31,968 nucleotides of DNA. It comes from a virus. Positions 3,158 through 30,802 of the stretch are shown here, in pieces. The stretch covers positions 1 to 31,968 of the IMG/VR virus record IMGVR_UViG_3300021440_000088; one strand, given 5' to 3'. A program made the position numbers and the translations under genes. The notes beneath the pieces were generated by a model, which was given only the letters and a program-made list of their open reading frames with translations, was not told where the DNA came from and searched no databases. Within the stretch, counting starts at the first letter, position 1; every line of letters starts with the position of its first letter.

Positions 3158-3160
3158 CGC

Positions 3161-4636
3161 ATGTTCCTGTCGCTGTTCCGCGCTGGCGCTGACCGATCGC
3201 CCTGGGGCGACTTCTGGTTCGAGCCCGTCAGCCGCTCGACCGGCTCCGGCATGCGCGTCAGTCCCGACACCGCGCTCTCGCTGACCGCCGTCTACGCCTG
3301 CGTGCGCGTGCGTGCCGAAAGCTTCGCGCTGCTGCCGTTCCGCATGTACCGCCGCGGCATCGACGGCCAGCGCAAGGCCGTCACCGACCACTGGCTGTAC
3401 CGCCTGATGGCCAAGCGGCCCAACCGCTGGCAGACGCCCTTCGAGTTCCGCGAGATGCTGCAGGGCCACCTGGACCTGCGCGGCAATGCCTTCTGCCAGA
3501 TCATCGACGACGGCGCCGGCGGTATCGCCGAGCTTCTGCCGATGCACCCTGACCGCATCACCGTCGAGATGGTCGACGGCCAGGACTACCGCTACCGCTA
3601 CACCCGGGCCGACGGCAGCCGCCAGGTGTTCCGCCGCGACCAGGTGTGGCACCTGCGCGGCCTGAGCGGCGACGGAGTCGTCGGCTTCAACCCGATCGAG
3701 CTTGCCCGCGAGTCCATCGGCGAAGCGCTGCAGTACCAGGCTTACAGCAGCCGCTTCTTCGCCAACAACGCCACCCCGCCAATCTGGATCAAGTACCCCG
3801 GCAAGATGGCCGACAAAGCGACCCGCGAAAGCGTGCGCGAGACCCTGCAGGCCGGCCAGACCGGCATGAACCGCGGCAAGCTCATGGTGCTGGACCAGGG
3901 TATGGAGCTGCAGGCCGTGTCGGTGAACCTGAAAGACCTGCAGTTCCTCGAAGCGCGCCAGATGAAGGTGCCCGAGATCGCGCGCCTCTTCCGCGTACCG
4001 CCGCACAAGATCGGCGACCTGAGCAAGGCGACATTCAGCAACATCGAGCAGCAAAGCATCGAGTTCTGGCAGGACGCCATGCAGCCGACGGCCGAGCGCT
4101 GGGAAGCCAGCATCGAATGCCAGCTGCTGGGTGACGACAGCATCGATGTCGAGTTCGACATGCGTGCCCAGATGCGCGGCGACAGCGCGGCCCGCGCGCA
4201 GTACCTGCACAACCTGGTGCTGGACGGCATCCTGACCCGCAACGAGGCCCGCGAGATCGAAGGCTTCGACCGCATCGAAGGCCTGGACGAGCCGCTGGTG
4301 CCGACCAACGAGCGCGAGCTAAGCGACCCGGACCCGAACGGTGAGGCCGGTGCCGGTGAGACGCTGCCCGACGCCACGCCGCCGGCAAATGACGAAGACG
4401 CAGCTGCCCAGCAGAACCGCTTGCGCGCCGTCCTGATCGGCAACGCCGATCGCATGGCGCGCCGCATCGCCGCGGGCGACTGGCCAGCCGACCAGGTGTT
4501 GTCCGACGCGCTGGCCCTGCCGCTGGCGGACGCCGGCCGCCTGCAGGCGCTGGCGCAGGCCCAGGGCTGGGCCGGCGCCGAGCGGCACATCGTGGCTACG
4601 CACCTGCTGGGCATCGCACTGAAAGGCACCGCATGA
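3161..4636 (+). CDS. Portal protein (HK97 family)
   Basis: A 491-residue protein with the HK97-family portal features: VSPDTALSLTAVYACVRVRAES near the start, the WHLRGLSGDGVVGFNPIE segment in the middle, and ARLFRVPPHKIGDL around residue 285. The dodecameric portal forms the DNA channel at one capsid vertex and is the docking site for terminase and head-tail connector. The C-terminal about 100 residues are acidic and low in complexity. An AAGGG ribosome-binding site precedes the ATG. The stop overlaps the protease gene start (ATGA). Confidence 0.95.
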   Translation: MFLSLFRAGADRSPWGDFWFEPVSRSTGSGMRVSPDTALSLTAVYACVRVRAESFALLPFRMYRRGIDGQRKAVTDHWLYRLMAKRPNRWQTPFEFREMLQGHLDLRGNAFCQIIDDGAGGIAELLPMHPDRITVEMVDGQDYRYRYTRADGSRQVFRRDQVWHLRGLSGDGVVGFNPIELARESIGEALQYQAYSSRFFANNATPPIWIKYPGKMADKATRESVRETLQAGQTGMNRGKLMVLDQGMELQAVSVNLKDLQFLEARQMKVPEIARLFRVPPHKIGDLSKATFSNIEQQSIEFWQDAMQPTAERWEASIECQLLGDDSIDVEFDMRAQMRGDSAARAQYLHNLVLDGILTRNEAREIEGFDRIEGLDEPLVPTNERELSDPDPNGEAGAGETLPDATPPANDEDAAAQQNRLRAVLIGNADRMARRIAAGDWPADQVLSDALALPLADAGRLQALAQAQGWAGAERHIVATHLLGIALKGTA

Positions 4637-25431: not shown

Positions 25432-25865
25432 GGAAACATCTCCAGCGTTCCCGCCTTCGTCCGGCGCGTGGCCTGGGCGTTGGCGCGGTGATGGTCATGG
25501 TCATAGGCCAAGTGGTGCCGCTGGCACATGGCGGCCAGGTTCTCCGGCGCGCAGTTCTCGGGCTGGTGGTCAAGGTGAGCCACGGTCAGCACGATGACGA
25601 GGATCTTGTAGTCGCCATCCTCGTCGCCGAAGCGGGCGAAGTGTTCATCAGCCGCACGCTGGCGGCCTTCGCCGAACGTCTCACACGGGCCGTAGATGCG
25701 CACCCAGCGCGGGCCGCTGTCAGCAAGGCGCCACCAACCAACGTCGTACTGCTTCGCGCGGCACCCTGCGTGCTGGCAGCCCCAAGCGGCACGCTCCTTC
25801 GCTTCCAGGCTGATCGCTTTCCAGTCTGCCGGGTAGCGTCTCAGGTTCTCTGGCTTGATCGGCAT
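25428..25865 (-). CDS. HNH-type endonuclease-like protein coupled to DGR RT
   Basis: A 145-residue protein. Its ATG shares one base with the RT stop (TGATG) and GGAG lies 6 bases upstream. A Cys pair (C30, C35) precedes the ILVIVLTVAHLDHQPENCAPENLAAMCQRHHLAYD segment, which has the HNH-type His-rich core (H97, H100, Asn103/109, C114, H117/H118) and a beta-beta-alpha metal layout. HNH proteins nick or cut DNA. Tight coupling to RT on one side and xis/int on the other is notable; whether it helps mutagenic homing, recombination or simply phage DNA metabolism is unknown. Confidence 0.75.
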   Translation of the reverse strand: MPIKPENLRRYPADWKAISLEAKERAAWGCQHAGCRAKQYDVGWWRLADSGPRWVRIYGPCETFGEGRQRAADEHFARFGDEDGDYKILVIVLTVAHLDHQPENCAPENLAAMCQRHHLAYDHDHHRANAQATRRTKAGTLEMFP

Positions 25866-27220
25866 CAGTAGCTCCGGAAAGTCTTGGTCAGATCGGCGCT
25901 GACGGCCTTGCCGCGGCGCCGAATCATGTTGGCCAATCGGGCACGGTCGGCGTGGCTGGCCGGCGCCTGGCGCAACAGGCCGAAATAGCTGTTGCCCGAC
26001 TGATGCAGTTCGGCGCGGGGCATCACCTGTAGGCGCTCGATCGCACTGGCCACGGTGCGCGGCCGGGTGCGACGGCACCACGGCTTGATGACCTGGCCGA
26101 CGAAGTCGACGCCGCGATCGACCGGCTGCAGGATGGTTTTGGCCGGCTGCAGGCGCACGTGCAGCTGCTCGGGCAGCCAGTGCGTCAGCGTGGCCAGCGT
26201 CTGGCTCAGCCACGCCGATGAAGGGTGCACCAGCACGAAATCATCGACGTAGCGGACGTAGTGCGGGGCGCGCAACCGGTGCTTGGCGAACTGGTCAAGA
26301 TCGTCCAGCAGCACGTTGGCGACGAACTGTGACGACAGGTTGCCGATGGGCAGGCCGTGTGCCGCCGGGGCGTTGAACAGGCTCTTGTGCGGGGGCACCA
26401 GCTGCAGCAACTCGCGGCGGCCGCGTACCTCCACGTCGCCGCGCGGGTCGTGCATCAGCACCGTGCTGGCCAGAGCCATCCACCACGGCTCGTGGATGCG
26501 GCGGGCCAGCTGGCGCAGCAGCACCAGCTTGTCGATCGACACGAAGAAGTTGGCCAGGTCGCACTTGAGGTAGTGCGCCGGCTGCGACCAGTTCTGCGTG
26601 GCGCTGCGAATCTGGTGCTCGAGCCGGCGAGCGGCGTACAGCGTGCCGCGGCCAGGGATGCAGGCGCAACTGTCGGCGGTGAACGCCGCGTGGAAGCGTG
26701 GCGCCACGTGGTTGTAGAGCAGGTGGTGGACGATGCGGTCGCGAAACTCGGCCGCCCACACCTCGCGCGGCCTGGGCCGCGTGACGACGAAGCAGATCGA
26801 GCGGCCGGGCTGGTAGTGGCCGCCGATCAGCTCGTCGTGAAGGTCGCACAGGTTTGCTTCGAGGCGGGCCTCGAAGGCCAGTGCGCTGGCGCTGTTGCGC
26901 TTGGTGCGTCGGCAGTCGATGTAGGCGACCACCAACGCTTCGAACAGGTCTGGATCTGCGGACGGCGCGGGCACGCGCCTCGAAGCTCTTGTCGTTGTTG
27001 TTCTGGTTGCCGTTGTTGAAGTTCTGGTTCCAGGCATACGAGCTGTCGTCGTGCTATCTACGTCGCCCTGCCGAAGGCCGTGGCCGATCAGTGGGGAAAC
27101 TGCGCCGGGCCTGGCCTGCACGCTGGCAGCGGTCTCCGTGGTGCGCATGGCGGTGGCCTCGTGGGCCAGCGGCACGACCAGATTCAGATTGCGCACGGGC
27201 ATGAGGGCCTTGACCGTCAT
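25865..27220 (-). CDS. Diversity-generating retroelement reverse transcriptase
   Basis: Reverse transcriptase of a DGR. Visible are the N-terminal RT-0/1 region (ICFVVTRPRPREVWAAEFRDRIVHHLL), YLKCDLANFFVSID with the first catalytic Asp, the DGR hallmark motif 4 variant LPIGNLSSQ (instead of QGxxxSP), and the active site YVDD. It copies the template RNA with adenine-directed errors. The RT domain begins near 26950. The start is uncertain: the frame is open upstream through the TR to an ATG at 27220 that overlaps the avd stop (ATGA) and has strongly GC-biased codons, giving 451 residues. A shorter start at 27037 (inside TR) gives 390 residues. Confidence 0.93.
   Translation of the reverse strand: MTVKALMPVRNLNLVVPLAHEATAMRTTETAASVQARPGAVSPLIGHGLRQGDVDSTTTARMPGTRTSTTATRTTTTRASRRVPAPSADPDLFEALVVAYIDCRRTKRNSASALAFEARLEANLCDLHDELIGGHYQPGRSICFVVTRPRPREVWAAEFRDRIVHHLLYNHVAPRFHAAFTADSCACIPGRGTLYAARRLEHQIRSATQNWSQPAHYLKCDLANFFVSIDKLVLLRQLARRIHEPWWMALASTVLMHDPRGDVEVRGRRELLQLVPPHKSLFNAPAAHGLPIGNLSSQFVANVLLDDLDQFAKHRLRAPHYVRYVDDFVLVHPSSAWLSQTLATLTHWLPEQLHVRLQPAKTILQPVDRGVDFVGQVIKPWCRRTRPRTVASAIERLQVMPRAELHQSGNSYFGLLRQAPASHADRARLANMIRRRGKAVSADLTKTFRSY
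26954..27048 (-). repeat. DGR template repeat (TR)
   Basis: A 95-base template lying between avd and the RT domain. On the coding (minus) strand it holds 28 adenines, including eight AAC codons in the target reading frame (reading W-N-Q-N-F-N-N-G-N-Q-N-N-N-D), the typical adenine-placed design that lets A-to-N errors reach many amino acids without stops. The 3' part is A-free and GC-rich and is identical in both variable repeats. A stop (TAG) precedes it in that frame, so it is not a target gene. It also lies inside the extended RT frame. Confidence 0.95.
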
Positions 27221-27582
27221 GCTGCAGGCGCCCGGTTCGCTGCGGACTTGAGCCATCCGCCACCCTGCTTGCCGATGCTGTCGAGCAGCGTCACCGACTC
27301 GGCCCACAGCTTGTGCGACACATACCGACTGTCGTGGCTGACCCGCAGCAGCACAGTGGCGGCGCGCAGGTGCTTCATCAGCTCGCCGATGTTGGCCGCT
27401 CGCTCGGCGTGCTTGGTGGCATTGGCCAGTGCCATCAGGTCGAGCATCTCGACGCAGTGCTGGCTGATCTTGTCGCCCAGCGAGCGCTTCACGCCGCGCG
27501 GCATCTGCTGCTGCACCTTGACGGCGAGAGCGAGCAGCTGGACGCCAGTGCGGTAGATCGGCAGATCGGTGTGCAGGGCCAT
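27217..27582 (-). CDS. avd: DGR accessory variability determinant (Avd)
   Basis: A 121-residue all-helical, basic protein with the Avd four-helix-bundle pattern: LPIYRTGVQLLALAVKVQQQMPRGVKRSLGDKI, CVEMLDLMALANATKH, NIGELMKHLRAATVLLRVSHDSRYVS, WAESVTLLDSIGKQGGGWLK. Avd forms a pentameric barrel that binds the RT and template RNA and is required for mutagenic homing (known from the Bordetella phage BPP-1 system). It sits between the target genes and TR, the same order as in BPP-1. The stop overlaps the 27220 ATG of the RT frame. Confidence 0.9.
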   Translation of the reverse strand: MALHTDLPIYRTGVQLLALAVKVQQQMPRGVKRSLGDKISQHCVEMLDLMALANATKHAERAANIGELMKHLRAATVLLRVSHDSRYVSHKLWAESVTLLDSIGKQGGGWLKSAANRAPAA

Positions 27583-27594
27583 GGCTCAGGTCAA

Positions 27595-27615
27595 AAGGAC
27601 TGAAGGATCAAGCGG
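27595..27615 (-). repeat. Shared 3' flank motif of VR1 gene
   Basis: On the plus strand reads AAGGACTGAAGGATCAAGCGG, identical except for one base to 28085-28105 after VR2. It covers the stop codon of the VR1 target. It is absent next to TR. It may be a remnant of target-gene duplication or a cis element acting on VR but not TR. Confidence 0.7.
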
Positions 27616-28063
27616 GGAATCTGCGGACGGCGCGGGCACGCGCCTCGAAGCTCTTGGCGTCGTAGTCCTGGTAGCCGTTGAGGAAGCTCTGGTTCCAGGC
27701 AAACGAGCTGTCGCTTTCATGCTCCTGGCCGGACCAGTACCACCGGGGCTGGAACTCGCTCTTCAGGTTGGCGTAGAGCAGGGCCTGCTCCTGCCGCGTC
27801 GGCAGCTCGCCACCGGCCTTCTCGGCCCATGCCTTCGCGTCGGTCCAGCCGATGTCCTCTGCTTCGCCGGGCAGCAGGATCAGGTGATGGCTGGCCAGGC
27901 CGTCAGCGTCCAGCACCAGGCCGGCATAGCGCTCGCCGGTGCGCATCTCGATCTGCGCCTCGCGCAGGATCAGCAGCTTGGGCGCTGCTGCCTCCAGCGC
28001 CGCGATCATGGCGCCCAGCTTGGTGTGTTCGGCCTTGACGGCCTCCAAGGTGATCATCGTCAC
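27608..28063 (-). CDS. DGR target protein 1 (C-type-lectin-like, VR1)
   Basis: A 151-residue protein; GTG start at 28063 with GGGAG 7 bases upstream (an in-frame ATG follows two codons later). An N-terminal helix (EAVKAEHTKLGAMIAALEAA) is followed by a lectin-fold/DUF1566-type domain: GERYAGLVLDADGLASHHLILLPGEAE, GWTDAKAWAEKAGGELPTRQEQALLYANLKSEFQPRWYW. The C-terminus is the variable repeat (DSSFAWNQSFLNGYQDYDAKSFEARARAVRR). No signal peptide or membrane segment is seen. The diversified surface should bind a changing ligand; virion or cytoplasmic location is unknown. Confidence 0.92.
   Translation of the reverse strand: MTMITLEAVKAEHTKLGAMIAALEAAAPKLLILREAQIEMRTGERYAGLVLDADGLASHHLILLPGEAEDIGWTDAKAWAEKAGGELPTRQEQALLYANLKSEFQPRWYWSGQEHESDSSFAWNQSFLNGYQDYDAKSFEARARAVRRFPA
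27619..27713 (-). repeat. DGR variable repeat VR1
   Basis: 95 bases collinear with TR at the 3' end of target gene 1. I count 9 differences from TR, all at adenines of the coding strand (e.g. TAT to TTT, AAC to AGC, CTC, TAC, GAC, GAC to GCC) and none at C, G or T. The 3' GC-rich part and the flanking AGAT match TR exactly. This is direct evidence of adenine-specific mutagenic homing. Confidence 0.95.
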
Positions 28064-28084
28064 AGTGAGTCTCCCGTGAGGTTG

Positions 28085-28105
28085 AAGGATTGAAGGATCA
28101 AGCGG
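28085..28105 (-). repeat. Shared 3' flank motif of VR2 gene
   Basis: AAGGATTGAAGGATCAAGCGG on the plus strand, matching 27595-27615 at 20 of 21 bases, at about the same distance from the VR end. It spans the stop codon of target 2 and the bases leading to target 1. Confidence 0.7.
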
Positions 28106-28469
28106 TGAGCTGAATCAAGCGGACGGCGCGGGCACGCGCCTCGAACCACTTGACGCTGAAGCCCTGGAGGCCGTCGCTGAAGCCCTGGCCCCAGGCACAC
28201 GAGCTGTCGAGATCCTCGCAGGTCCAGTGCCACCGCGGCTCGAATTCGCCTTTCAGGGTGGCGAACAGCTGCGCCGACACCGGGCGCGCTGGCAGCTCGG
28301 CGCCCAGCTTCTTGGCCCAGGCTATCGCTTGCTTCCACGTCATGTCCTTGGCCGGCTTGTCGGCCAGCAGGACAACGGCGCAGTGCGTGCCGTCGGGCTT
28401 GGTGGTGATGCCGGCGAAGATGCCAGCATCCAGGGGTTGGCCAATGGCCGGGAGGTCGGAGAGGTTCAA
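28098..28469 (-). CDS. DGR target protein 2 (C-type-lectin-like, VR2)
   Basis: A 123-residue protein. The TTG at 28469 is chosen because AGGAG lies 6 bases upstream and the domain begins soon after; an alternative TTG at 28532 overlaps the upstream gene stop. It is a paralogue of target 1: GIFAGITTKPDGTHCAVVLLADK, MTWKQAIAWAKKLGAELPARPVSAQLFATLKGEFEPRWHW, then the variable repeat (DSSCAWGQGFSDGLQGFSVKWFEARARAVR) and a short LIQLTA tail. It lacks the N-terminal helix of target 1. No secretion signal. Probably diversified by the same RT. Confidence 0.9.
   Translation of the reverse strand: MNLSDLPAIGQPLDAGIFAGITTKPDGTHCAVVLLADKPAKDMTWKQAIAWAKKLGAELPARPVSAQLFATLKGEFEPRWHWTCEDLDSSCAWGQGFSDGLQGFSVKWFEARARAVRLIQLTA
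28119..28209 (-). repeat. DGR variable repeat VR2
   Basis: 91 bases aligned to TR without gaps. I count 17 differences: 16 at template adenines and one C-to-G in the AGC to TGG codon (Ser to Trp). All eight AAC codons of TR are changed. The shared GC-rich 3' end (ending GCCGTCCGC) is identical to TR and VR1, as expected for the homing-initiation region. It is much more diverged than VR1. Confidence 0.95.
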
Positions 28470-28528
28470 GGATTGCTCCTGGGGTTGTGCCGGCTTGCCG
28501 GCGGGATTGATTCGGGTGGGGCTGAAGA

Positions 28529-28858
28529 TCAAGGCTTGCCCCAGAGTTCATCTATCTGCGCGCGCCGCTCGGCCAGGAAGGCCAGGCGTGCTTCGTAGTC
28601 CTGTCTGTCGGTCGGGTCGATCACCAGCTCGCGGTAGTCCACGCGCTCGAAGACGATGTCCTGGCAGCCGTAGCGGCCGCACATGGGCTGGTAGCCGAAG
28701 TGCGGGCCGAAGAGCGGCCGGAACAAGATCGAATTGCGCGTGGCCCGGTACCGCCAGTCGATGCCCTGGCGCGTCAACACGGCGCGCAGGCGTTCGATGG
28801 CCGGCTGCTGGCGCGCAGGTACGCGGCGCGGTGCCAGGGGCAGGGCAAGCTGGTTCAT
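28529..28858 (-). CDS. Hypothetical phage protein upstream of DGR targets
   Basis: A 109-residue protein starting MNQLALPLAPRR; its ATG overlaps the methyltransferase stop (ATGA). It contains IERLRAVLTRQGIDWRYRATRNSILFRPLFGPHFGYQPMCGRYGCQDIVFERV and an acidic helical C-terminus (YEARLAFLAERRAQIDELWGKP). Two Cys residues flank a Gly-Arg-Tyr turn. No family is recognised. It is in the same operon as the methyltransferase and DGR. Confidence 0.7.
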   Translation of the reverse strand: MNQLALPLAPRRVPARQQPAIERLRAVLTRQGIDWRYRATRNSILFRPLFGPHFGYQPMCGRYGCQDIVFERVDYRELVIDPTDRQDYEARLAFLAERRAQIDELWGKP

Positions 28859-30426
28859 GCGGCCTCGCGCAGCGCCTGGCGCTCGCTGTAGTTCGCCCGC
28901 ACGATGGCCTCGGCCAGCGGCGGGCACACGCTGTTGCCGCACATGCGGACCTGGGCGGCCTTGCTCAGCGGCCGGCCGTCGGCGCCGCGGTCGATCACGT
29001 AGCTGGCAGGGAAGCCCTGCGCGGTGTACAGCTCGCGCGGCTGCAGCATGCGCATGCCGATGTCGGCGATGGCGTGCGGCACGCCGTCGACCATCACCAG
29101 CGCGAAGCGGGGCTTGGTGGTGACGGTGTGCAGCGGGTCATCCAGCGGCGTGTCCTGGTCGCTGCCGTAGTAGGCGGTCAGGAACGCGGCCACCAGGGCG
29201 TGGTGCGTGCCGCCAGCGCTCACGGTGCTGAGCGGCTGCTGCACGCTGTGGGCCGACCGATGCGCCGGGCTGGTGCCGCGCAGCGGGGCGATGGTGGCGC
29301 CGACCAGGCTGTGGTGGTCGCTGGTCGTCACCGTGCCCAGCGGCTGCATCACGCCGTGGCCGGTGACGCCGCCGTAATGCTTGGCCAGGAACGCGGCCAC
29401 CAGCGCATGCTTCTGGCCGCCCACCACCGTGCCCAGCGGCTTGTCAATGCCGGGCACCCGCGGTGCCTGGCCGGGGCGCTCGCCGTAGCCGGTCTGCACC
29501 AGCGTCGGCACGGCCAGCATGTGCTCGGCCTTGGTGGTGACGGTGGTCAGTGGCGTGTCGACGCTGTTGCTGTAGCTGCCGTTGCCGCCGGTCTGCCCGA
29601 TGCGCACGATGAACGGGTTCGCCGCCTCGACCACGTAGCGCATCACCCCGCGCGCCACCCGGCGCAGCGTGGCTTCGACCAGCGGCCGCTCGCGCTCGAA
29701 GATCGAAGGGCACGGCAAGCCCCAGTCGATGCAGTCGGCTGCGGTGCGCCAGGGCTGTAGGCCGCTGCCCTTGGCCGGCTTCGCCGCGTGCGTCGGTGCA
29801 GGCCAGACGATGGGCTGGCCGTCGCAGCGGGCGACCAGGAACAGCCGCTTGCGGATCGTCGGCGCGCCGTAGTCGCAGGCGCGCAGCTCGCGCCACTCGA
29901 CCGCGTAGCCCAGGTTGCGCAGCTCGGCCACCCAGCGGGCAAAGCTGCGGCCGCGACGGTCAGGGCAGGGCGTGCCGTCGGCCAGCAGCGGGCCCCAGTG
30001 CTGGAACTCTTCGACGTTCTCCAGGCTGATGACGCGCGGGTGCTGGCCGGTGGGCTTGAGCAGCCGCACCCACTTGACCACCACGCTGGCCAGGCCGCGC
30101 CGGCGGCGGGCCTTGTCGCGGTCGCGGTGCGGCTTGCCGCCCCTGGCCTTGCTGTGGAAGGTGCAGTCGGGGCTGGCCCACAGCAGGCCGATGCGGCGGC
30201 CGGCGGTGACCACGCGAGGGTCGACCTCCCACACGTTGCTGACGTGGTGCTCGGTCTGCGGGTGGTTGGCCTGGTGCAGGCTGACCGCCTCGGGGTCGTG
30301 GTTGACGGCGATGTCGACGTGCCGGCCGATCGCGGCCTCAATGCCGGTGCTGGCGCCGCCGCCACCGGCGAACAGGTCGACCACCAGCTCGTCGGACAGC
30401 GGCAGGATGAATTGCGGCTTCAGCAT
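28855..30426 (-). CDS. C5-cytosine DNA methyltransferase
   Basis: A 523-residue enzyme; ATG at 30426 gives MLKPQFILPLSDELVVDLFAGGGG. Motif I DLFAGGGGASTG (17-28) binds AdoMet. Motif IV is ASPDCTFHS with catalytic Cys88 (PDC in place of the common PPC). Motif VI is ENV (136-138), and motif X GNSVCPPLAEAI is at the end. The target-recognition region holds five imperfect repeats of the type PL.TVTT....HALV.AFL. No restriction partner is seen, so it is an orphan phage enzyme, likely protecting phage DNA from host restriction. Confidence 0.92.
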   Translation of the reverse strand: MLKPQFILPLSDELVVDLFAGGGGASTGIEAAIGRHVDIAVNHDPEAVSLHQANHPQTEHHVSNVWEVDPRVVTAGRRIGLLWASPDCTFHSKARGGKPHRDRDKARRRRGLASVVVKWVRLLKPTGQHPRVISLENVEEFQHWGPLLADGTPCPDRRGRSFARWVAELRNLGYAVEWRELRACDYGAPTIRKRLFLVARCDGQPIVWPAPTHAAKPAKGSGLQPWRTAADCIDWGLPCPSIFERERPLVEATLRRVARGVMRYVVEAANPFIVRIGQTGGNGSYSNSVDTPLTTVTTKAEHMLAVPTLVQTGYGERPGQAPRVPGIDKPLGTVVGGQKHALVAAFLAKHYGGVTGHGVMQPLGTVTTSDHHSLVGATIAPLRGTSPAHRSAHSVQQPLSTVSAGGTHHALVAAFLTAYYGSDQDTPLDDPLHTVTTKPRFALVMVDGVPHAIADIGMRMLQPRELYTAQGFPASYVIDRGADGRPLSKAAQVRMCGNSVCPPLAEAIVRANYSERQALREAA

Positions 30427-30439
30427 GCGATCACCGCCC

Positions 30440-30802
30440 TCAAGCCAGCCGCCACACGCCATGCTTGCCGTCCGGCAGCACGCGGGTGGTGACCTTGACG
30501 CCCAGCTTGCGGGCGCGGGCCAGCAGGCTCTTGGCCTGCTTCTCCGTCAGCTCGGCGCAGTAGCCGGGCTCCATGCGCTTGAGCAGGGCGCCATAGCGGT
30601 CCAGGCCCGCCGCGCCGCGGCTGGCGGGCGGCAGCGGCACGCCCTTCTTGATGACCACCGCAGCAGGGTCCAGCACGGTGTAGGTGCGGCTGGCCTGGGC
30701 GGCCTGCTTCGCCTGCCGGCCGGCGTCGAACACGCTGGCCGCGGCGCCGGCGGGCTTCTCGATCGTGGTGGCCGGCACGCGGCGCTGGATGGCGGTTTCC
30801 AT
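30440..30802 (-). CDS. Hypothetical protein (helical DNA-metabolism operon)
   Basis: A 120-residue protein. The ATG at 30802 has GGAG upstream; the longer open frame further upstream overlaps the previous gene in another frame. It is Ala/Lys-rich: METAIQRRVPATTIEK, YTVLDPAAVVIKKGVPLPPASRG, then YGALLKRMEPGYCAELTEKQAKSLLARARKLGVKVTTRVLPDGKHGVWRL, resembling a small alpha/beta nucleic-acid-binding domain. No family is certain. It lies 13 bases upstream of the methyltransferase. Confidence 0.65.
   Translation of the reverse strand: METAIQRRVPATTIEKPAGAAASVFDAGRQAKQAAQASRTYTVLDPAAVVIKKGVPLPPASRGAAGLDRYGALLKRMEPGYCAELTEKQAKSLLARARKLGVKVTTRVLPDGKHGVWRLA

Follow-up and report, generated by a model that had tools for sequence, protein, structure and literature searches.

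We analyzed a 31,968-nucleotide stretch of viral DNA (positions 1 to 31,968 of the IMG/VR record IMGVR_UViG_3300021440_000088; hereafter, the window), which carries a complete diversity-generating retroelement (DGR) of a temperate-type phage. The DGR is very probably of a functional type, in which a single template repeat (TR) diversifies the adenine-encoded residues of two neighboring proteins with a C-type-lectin fold and the template RNA is circularly permuted with respect to that of the Bordetella phage BPP-1. The proposed scaffold of this RNA, the structured RNA RT-15 (Rfam RF03018), lies 5′ of the TR. The DGR identity itself is ordinary; a permuted template RNA with an upstream scaffold is new as far as the open literature and Rfam show, and earlier notice of parts of it is possible.

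A reverse transcriptase (RT), an Avd protein, the TR, two variable repeats (VRs) and two target genes were all found in the window, in the minus-strand order target 2, target 1, avd, TR, RT, followed by an HNH gene and then by a tyrosine integrase gene (Table 1). The RT matches phrog_1423 (E = 1.5e-106) and has intact IGNLSSQ (26347-26327) and YVDD (26251-26240) motifs, and Avd scores 40.5 bits against Pfam bAvd (cut-off, 40). Both targets are small C-type-lectin-fold proteins with a VR at the 3′ end of the gene; the predicted fold of target 1 is a C-type-lectin domain (pLDDT 96.4), with the C-terminal domain of Legionella Lcl (8q4e) as the best match in a structure search. DUF1566 targets were previously known for DGRs (PMC6642488). 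An earlier note, made from the sequence alone, had described a complete DGR of a temperate phage with these RT motifs, an Avd-like gene and two lectin-like targets in the order targets-avd-TR-RT, and the protein matches, coordinates and fold prediction agree with that description. The span of 25865-28469 given there holds overall, except at its upper end, since target 2 reaches 28532.

In the repeat core, 26 of the 27 differences from the TR, pooled over both VRs, fall at template adenines; as adenine makes up approximately 29% of the TR, this is far beyond chance. The pattern had been noted before as 25 of 26, and the count has changed owing to where the 3′ edge is drawn. The same specificity was found among relatives of the element, for which an RT scan yielded 80 loci in viral records and 35 in genomes; most of them are from phages or prophages of Burkholderiales, Rhodocyclales, Pseudomonas, and others. 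With TR/VR pairs located by a mechanical finder that penalizes non-adenine mismatches, 2199 of 2246 mismatches in 183 pooled pairs were at template adenines; because of that penalty, the count was repeated with fixed extents, and 42% of template adenines were changed versus 3-5% of other bases. The scatter of substitutions over all template bases in more strains, which the earlier note had named as the observation that would speak against its reading, did not occur.

The gap between avd and the TR is filled by RT-15 (192 nt), which runs from the last avd codons to the start of the TR and had gone unnoticed in the earlier reading. The window carries a full-length member of this RNA family, scoring 169.1 bits against a gathering threshold of 82 and covering model positions 1-192 of 192, and in an 88-sequence alignment, 34 of the 46 predicted pairs show compensatory changes. 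RT-15 is present in the window, in 29 of 29 relatives and in 4 of 4 annotated phages scanned, and ends at the TR start wherever a TR was located; among plasmids, RT-15 had no match. At one locus (L030), RT-15 occupies 3158-3352 and the RT core lies at 4001, approximately 650 nt away, no TR/VR pair was found, and the TR region possibly contains an insertion. The Rfam model stops at the TR and its title names no DGRs. We found no paper on RT-15, RF03018, or RF03022 in the open literature, a search outside which the original RNA-discovery description lies; the proposed link of RT-15 to DGR templates is drawn from the loci analyzed here.

Just before helix A, the closing helix of the RT-15 domain, the Rfam model shows a 14-nt stretch as unpaired, and this stretch is complementary to the 3′ edge of the TR and its flank. 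The resulting helix, termed helix B and lacking from the Rfam model, was first spotted by eye in the same sequences in which its whole-helix covariation was then measured as 0.237, compared with 0.092 for shuffled alignments (0 of 500 shuffles reached this value) and 0.03-0.11 when the register was slid. One of its pairs, 108-418, is a standard pair in every one of the 87 sequences that have a letter at each of the two positions (GC 39, UA 24, CG 18, AU 3, and UG 3); when partners were swapped between sequences, pairing fell from 89 of 89 with the own partner to 42%, and on the RT tree the 15 changes at this pair comprise 13 double compensatory changes, 2 changes from CG to UG, and none that breaks it. 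The DGRs of the Bacteroides phage F2 group possess a helix of 8-10 bp in the corresponding position, whose sequence is unrelated in the two subgroups (GUUAUCUG/CAGAUAAC and UUUCCGUAA/UUACGGAAG), which in a group of only three or four loci is support for helix B rather than proof of it.

The borders of the copied stretch coincide with the two helices. Counted over non-adenine bases, TR/VR identity holds at 98% as far as the first helix B nucleotide and has dropped to chance level by about +6, and the 5′ border of the homology lies approximately 6 nt past helix A. The copied stretch is thus the loop that helices A and B delimit, and its borders are those expected if synthesis were primed at helix B and halted at helix A. 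In the mechanism that we propose, the template RNA would consist, in order, of a 5′-hairpin, strand B5′, an unpaired G, the RT-15 domain with helix A as its closing stem, the TR, strand B3′, and the RT gene, with helix B folding the 3′ edge of the TR back onto the upstream scaffold. The RT-Avd complex would most likely bind the RT-15 scaffold, and complementary DNA (cDNA) synthesis would most likely begin at the junction of helix B and the TR from a primer in the upstream RNA (candidate, G 27178); the TR would be copied with misincorporation at adenines until synthesis stops at helix A, and the cDNA would then replace a VR in a target gene. Tentatively, with doubt slightly outweighing belief, we extend this to the whole clade: DGRs of Proteobacteria phages and prophages and of their Bacteroides phage sister group may all start reverse transcription from RNA on the 5′ side of the template, with the invariant unpaired G 27178, beside the template-closing helix, as the probable site.

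Helix B and RT-15 could instead mainly control translation of the RT, by shutting off or coupling initiation near the 3′ edge of the TR, without a part in cDNA priming. The RT start lies at or within the TR, beside the 3′ strand of helix B, and annotators place it differently, which would suit such control; yet it does not predict that the copy borders coincide with the first pair of helix B and with helix A, and we regard it as unlikely. A dual role in translation and priming is possible.

A scaffold on the 3′ side of the TR, as in BPP-1, was sought in several ways. In the window, 10 nt separate the end of the TR from the RT core, and the window showed no structured spacer 3′ of the TR (RF03022 or equivalent), either as an Rfam match or as downstream synonymous constraint. 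The distance from TR end to RT core is 4-69 nt in the RT-15 clade and 41-47 nt in the F2 group, versus 141-342 nt in approximately 80 other DGRs drawn from several groups. The first 45 codons of the RT show no constraint at synonymous sites (ratio, approximately 1.0), so there is no sign of a 3′ scaffold concealed within the RT gene, and this candidate was rejected for lack of synonymous suppression. An ordinary BPP-1-type DGR, with a 3′ spacer scaffold overlapping the start of the RT gene and RT-15 as an unrelated leader or regulatory RNA, would have the merit of using the only proven priming mode, in which the spacer 3′ of the TR recruits bRT-Avd and primes (PMC12875486). Against it stand the unconstrained codons, the short distance, and the position of RT-15, which always stops at the TR and which helix B connects to the 3′ edge of the TR; such an arrangement is distinctly improbable here.

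In the RT tree, which has long branches and was built without non-DGR outgroup RTs, the window RT groups with DGR RTs having TR/VR pairs of their own, the placement that the earlier note had expected of a DGR, and all sampled DGRs with a 5′ scaffold fall on one side of a 100/100 branch. Nine phage records contain an RT 60-67% identical to that of the window. In most relatives, the TR lies just before the RT core and the VRs are located approximately 780 and 1270 nt upstream; some relatives also have a third VR. The whole 31,968-base virus record, searched for remote VRs as the earlier note had suggested, yielded no third VR, and further VRs may lie elsewhere in a host. Two relatives (L022 and L086) have a third, remote target with a VR approximately 3.2 kb upstream of the RT and a coiled-coil-like extension, which is N-terminal in L022 and C-terminal, after the VR, in L086, so that a VR need not sit at the very end of its gene.

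Mutagenic retrohoming is visible by sequence in the relatives L049/L050 and L093/L094. The former two (IMGVR_UViG_3300047317_000979 and IMGVR_UViG_3300046535_001640, respectively) differ at 14 sites in 7384 bp, all at template adenines of one VR; these near-isogenic phages offer a natural snapshot of the process. Likewise, Cupriavidus pauculus UM1 and 19C6 have identical TRs and two VRs that differ at 12 of 12 and 13 of 13 template-adenine sites. Because both pairs differ at template adenines, the DGR family of the window is active in nature, and has been so recently, and the earlier note's statement that the element is or recently was active holds for the family, whereas for the window's own copy it stays a deduction. 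The window copy might be a degraded remnant, given that no reads or near-identical relative display ongoing change in it; we consider this very improbable, as the reading frames of the RT, Avd and both targets are open, neither the YVDD nor the IGNLSSQ motif is disrupted, helices A and B are preserved, and the VR changes lie at adenines. Scarcely credible is translation of the RT from an ATG overlapping the avd stop (ATGA), through RT-15 and the TR, with the conserved block as a protein N-terminus, for although the RT frame is open through the TR and most of RT-15 in approximately 100 of 112 relatives, this is contradicted by the nearly absent codon phase of RT-15, where substitutions are spread 31/28/41% over the three codon positions versus 19/14/67% in the RT core, the TR follows another frame (24/52/24%), and approximately ten loci have in-frame stops in the TR or RT-15.

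Several points weigh against a permuted template RNA primed from upstream. RNAalifold, run over the entire region, finds RT-15 and misses helix B, and single-sequence folding also fails to give this helix (z = +1.07, uninformative), so helix B rests on covariation. Its pair 6 is an A.C mismatch in many loci, the window included, and pairing is weak past position 9. The choice of RT start is ambiguous, with candidates at 26974 and 27037 on the minus strand, both inside the TR, and the synonymous-site test was run without a separate positive control. The intact genes and clean adenine pattern of the window's own copy suggest that it is active, and the priming role of helix B, the upstream primer, the binding of RT-Avd by RT-15, and the ligands of the targets are inferred.

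BPP-1 and its kin require a hairpin after the VR (PMC3240598). No GC-rich hairpin was found within approximately 60 nt after VR1 or VR2 in the window, and across the RT-15 clade, such a hairpin follows 26 of 182 VRs versus 65 of 83 in DGRs with a 3′ scaffold; a BPP-1-like hairpin, absent in the window and rare in the clade, was thus rejected as the target-site element. In place of the usual hairpin, the window has tandem 8-mers that overlap the stop codons of the targets. Such tandem 8-mers (TTYRRYMM-like) follow 112 of the 182 clade VRs versus 0 of 95 TRs, 0 of 95 RT genes, and 2 of 83 in other DGRs; with the motif derived from the same data in which it was counted, they are a lead to a candidate target-site element.

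The neighbors of the cassette, in the window and in four annotated relatives, are integrase, recombination, repressor, or cytosine-methyltransferase genes, with no tail genes, and a role at the tail fiber tip is therefore not to be assumed for the targets. The annotated relatives likewise reside in temperate-type phages. Cytosine-5 methyltransferase genes similar to the one adjoining the DGR of the window occur near the DGR in 17 clade loci. The HNH gene directly downstream of the RT was rejected as a DGR nuclease, because just 2 clade loci, one of them the window, were found to have a similar HNH gene. In the related phages L120, L121, and L122, the annotated RT starts differ by up to approximately 275 nt, and in L117, two opposite-strand tRNA genes lie approximately 2.7 kb downstream of the RT core.

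Table 1. Features of the DGR cassette and adjoining genes, in window coordinates.
Feature	Position	Strand	Remarks
Integrase (tyrosine)	25258-23990	-	Downstream of RT and HNH gene
Reverse transcriptase	25865..26974	-	Conserved core from 26944; start codon uncertain, GTG at 26974 inside TR
Helix B, 3′ strand (CAGAUCCAGA)	26949..26958	-	At TR 3′ edge; TR/VR homology ends here
TR (95 nt)	26954..27048	-	Repeat comparison
RT-15 RNA (Rfam RF03018), proposed template-RNA scaffold	27042..27233	-	Covariance model, covariation, noncoding substitutions
Helix A, 3′ strand	27049..27054	-	Ends directly before TR
Helix A (closing helix of RT-15 domain), 5′ strand	27172..27177	-	Pairs with 27054-27049
Unpaired G between helices B and A	27178	-	Invariant in 88 sequences; candidate priming nucleotide
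Helix B, 5′ strand (UCUGAAUCUG)	27179..27188	-	Unpaired in Rfam RT-15 model
avd (accessory variability determinant, 121 aa)	27217..27582	-	Pfam bAvd; phrog_3206 "Avd protein of DGR"
Tandem 8-mer motif after VR1 (CTTGATCC TTCAGTCC TTTTGACC)	27589..27611	-	Directly after VR1
Target gene 1 (151 aa)	27608..28063	-	VR1 at 3′ end; C-type-lectin (Lcl_C/DUF1566-like) fold
VR1	27619..27713	-	9/9 differences from TR at template A
Tandem 8-mer motif after VR2 (CTTGATCC TTCAATCC TTCAACC)	28079..28101	-	Not after TR; candidate target-site element
Target gene 2 (144 aa)	28098..28532	-	VR2 at 3′ end; phrog_4245; 38% identity with target 1
VR2	28119..28209	-	17/18 differences from TR at template A, 1 at C
Cytosine-5 DNA methyltransferase	28855-30462	-	Adjoins DGR

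BPP-1 is the only DGR for which it is known in detail how the RNA positions its template and primer. The clade described here seems to use a scaffold on the opposite side of the template, which would give the orphan Rfam RNA RT-15 a function. If true, this would amount to retron-like, 5′-primed synthesis in a DGR, a priming solution unlike the 3′ spacer of BPP-1, and would link the RNA architectures of DGRs and retrons. The exact nucleotides whose swap should abolish and then restore cDNA synthesis are marked, making the start of copying testable, and designers of targeted-mutagenesis tools would see where template and scaffold can be cut.

The DGR of Bordetella phage BPP-1 (mtd-avd-TR-brt) shares with that of the window the target-avd-TR-RT order, adenine-specific divergence, and a C-type-lectin target. 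It differs in that avd abuts the TR, a 144-nt spacer (Rfam Phage_DGR) separates the TR from brt, a hairpin follows the VR, and the target is a tail fiber, whereas the window has approximately 170 nt of RT-15 5′ of the TR, no 3′ spacer, no post-VR hairpin, and two small targets by an integrase gene. The earlier note held its set of parts to be sufficient for mutagenic retrohoming on the BPP-1 model; the gene set is indeed the same, but the statement overlooks the spacer RNA 3′ of the TR and the post-VR hairpin of BPP-1 (PMC12875486, PMC3240598), both of which are missing in that form from the window, where the RNA scaffold lies 5′ of the TR. The DGR of BalMu-1 has the Rfam RT-14 RNA 3′ of the TR, as Phage_DGR is in BPP-1.

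Burkholderia phage Magia, Pseudomonas phages Haboob and LPPA56, and Shewanella phage vB_Sb_QDWS belong to the same clade as the window element, with RTs 60-66% identical to that of the window, and share with it RT-15, a TR beside the RT, two VRs, and a location in the early/integrase region. The Magia record alone mentions avd by name, together with a possible DGR target; for the other three, RT and avd are annotated generically. The nearest group in the RT tree, that of Bacteroides phage F2, with RTs approximately 36% identical to the window RT, resembles the window in its 5′-scaffold layout and in the equivalent helix at the 3′ edge of the TR and differs in having no RT-15 match, an unrelated helix sequence, and a GAAA-loop hairpin retained after the VR. 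Retron noncoding RNAs are laid out as a1, branch G, msr, msd, and a2, and the window RNA has a similar order of parts, namely a 5′ strand, an unpaired G, a structured domain, the template, and a 3′ strand. Unlike those of a retron, the RT, Avd, and TR/VR pairs of the window are of the DGR type, and its RT scores 35.7 bits against the retron RT model (cut-off, 235); the element is a DGR, not a retron.

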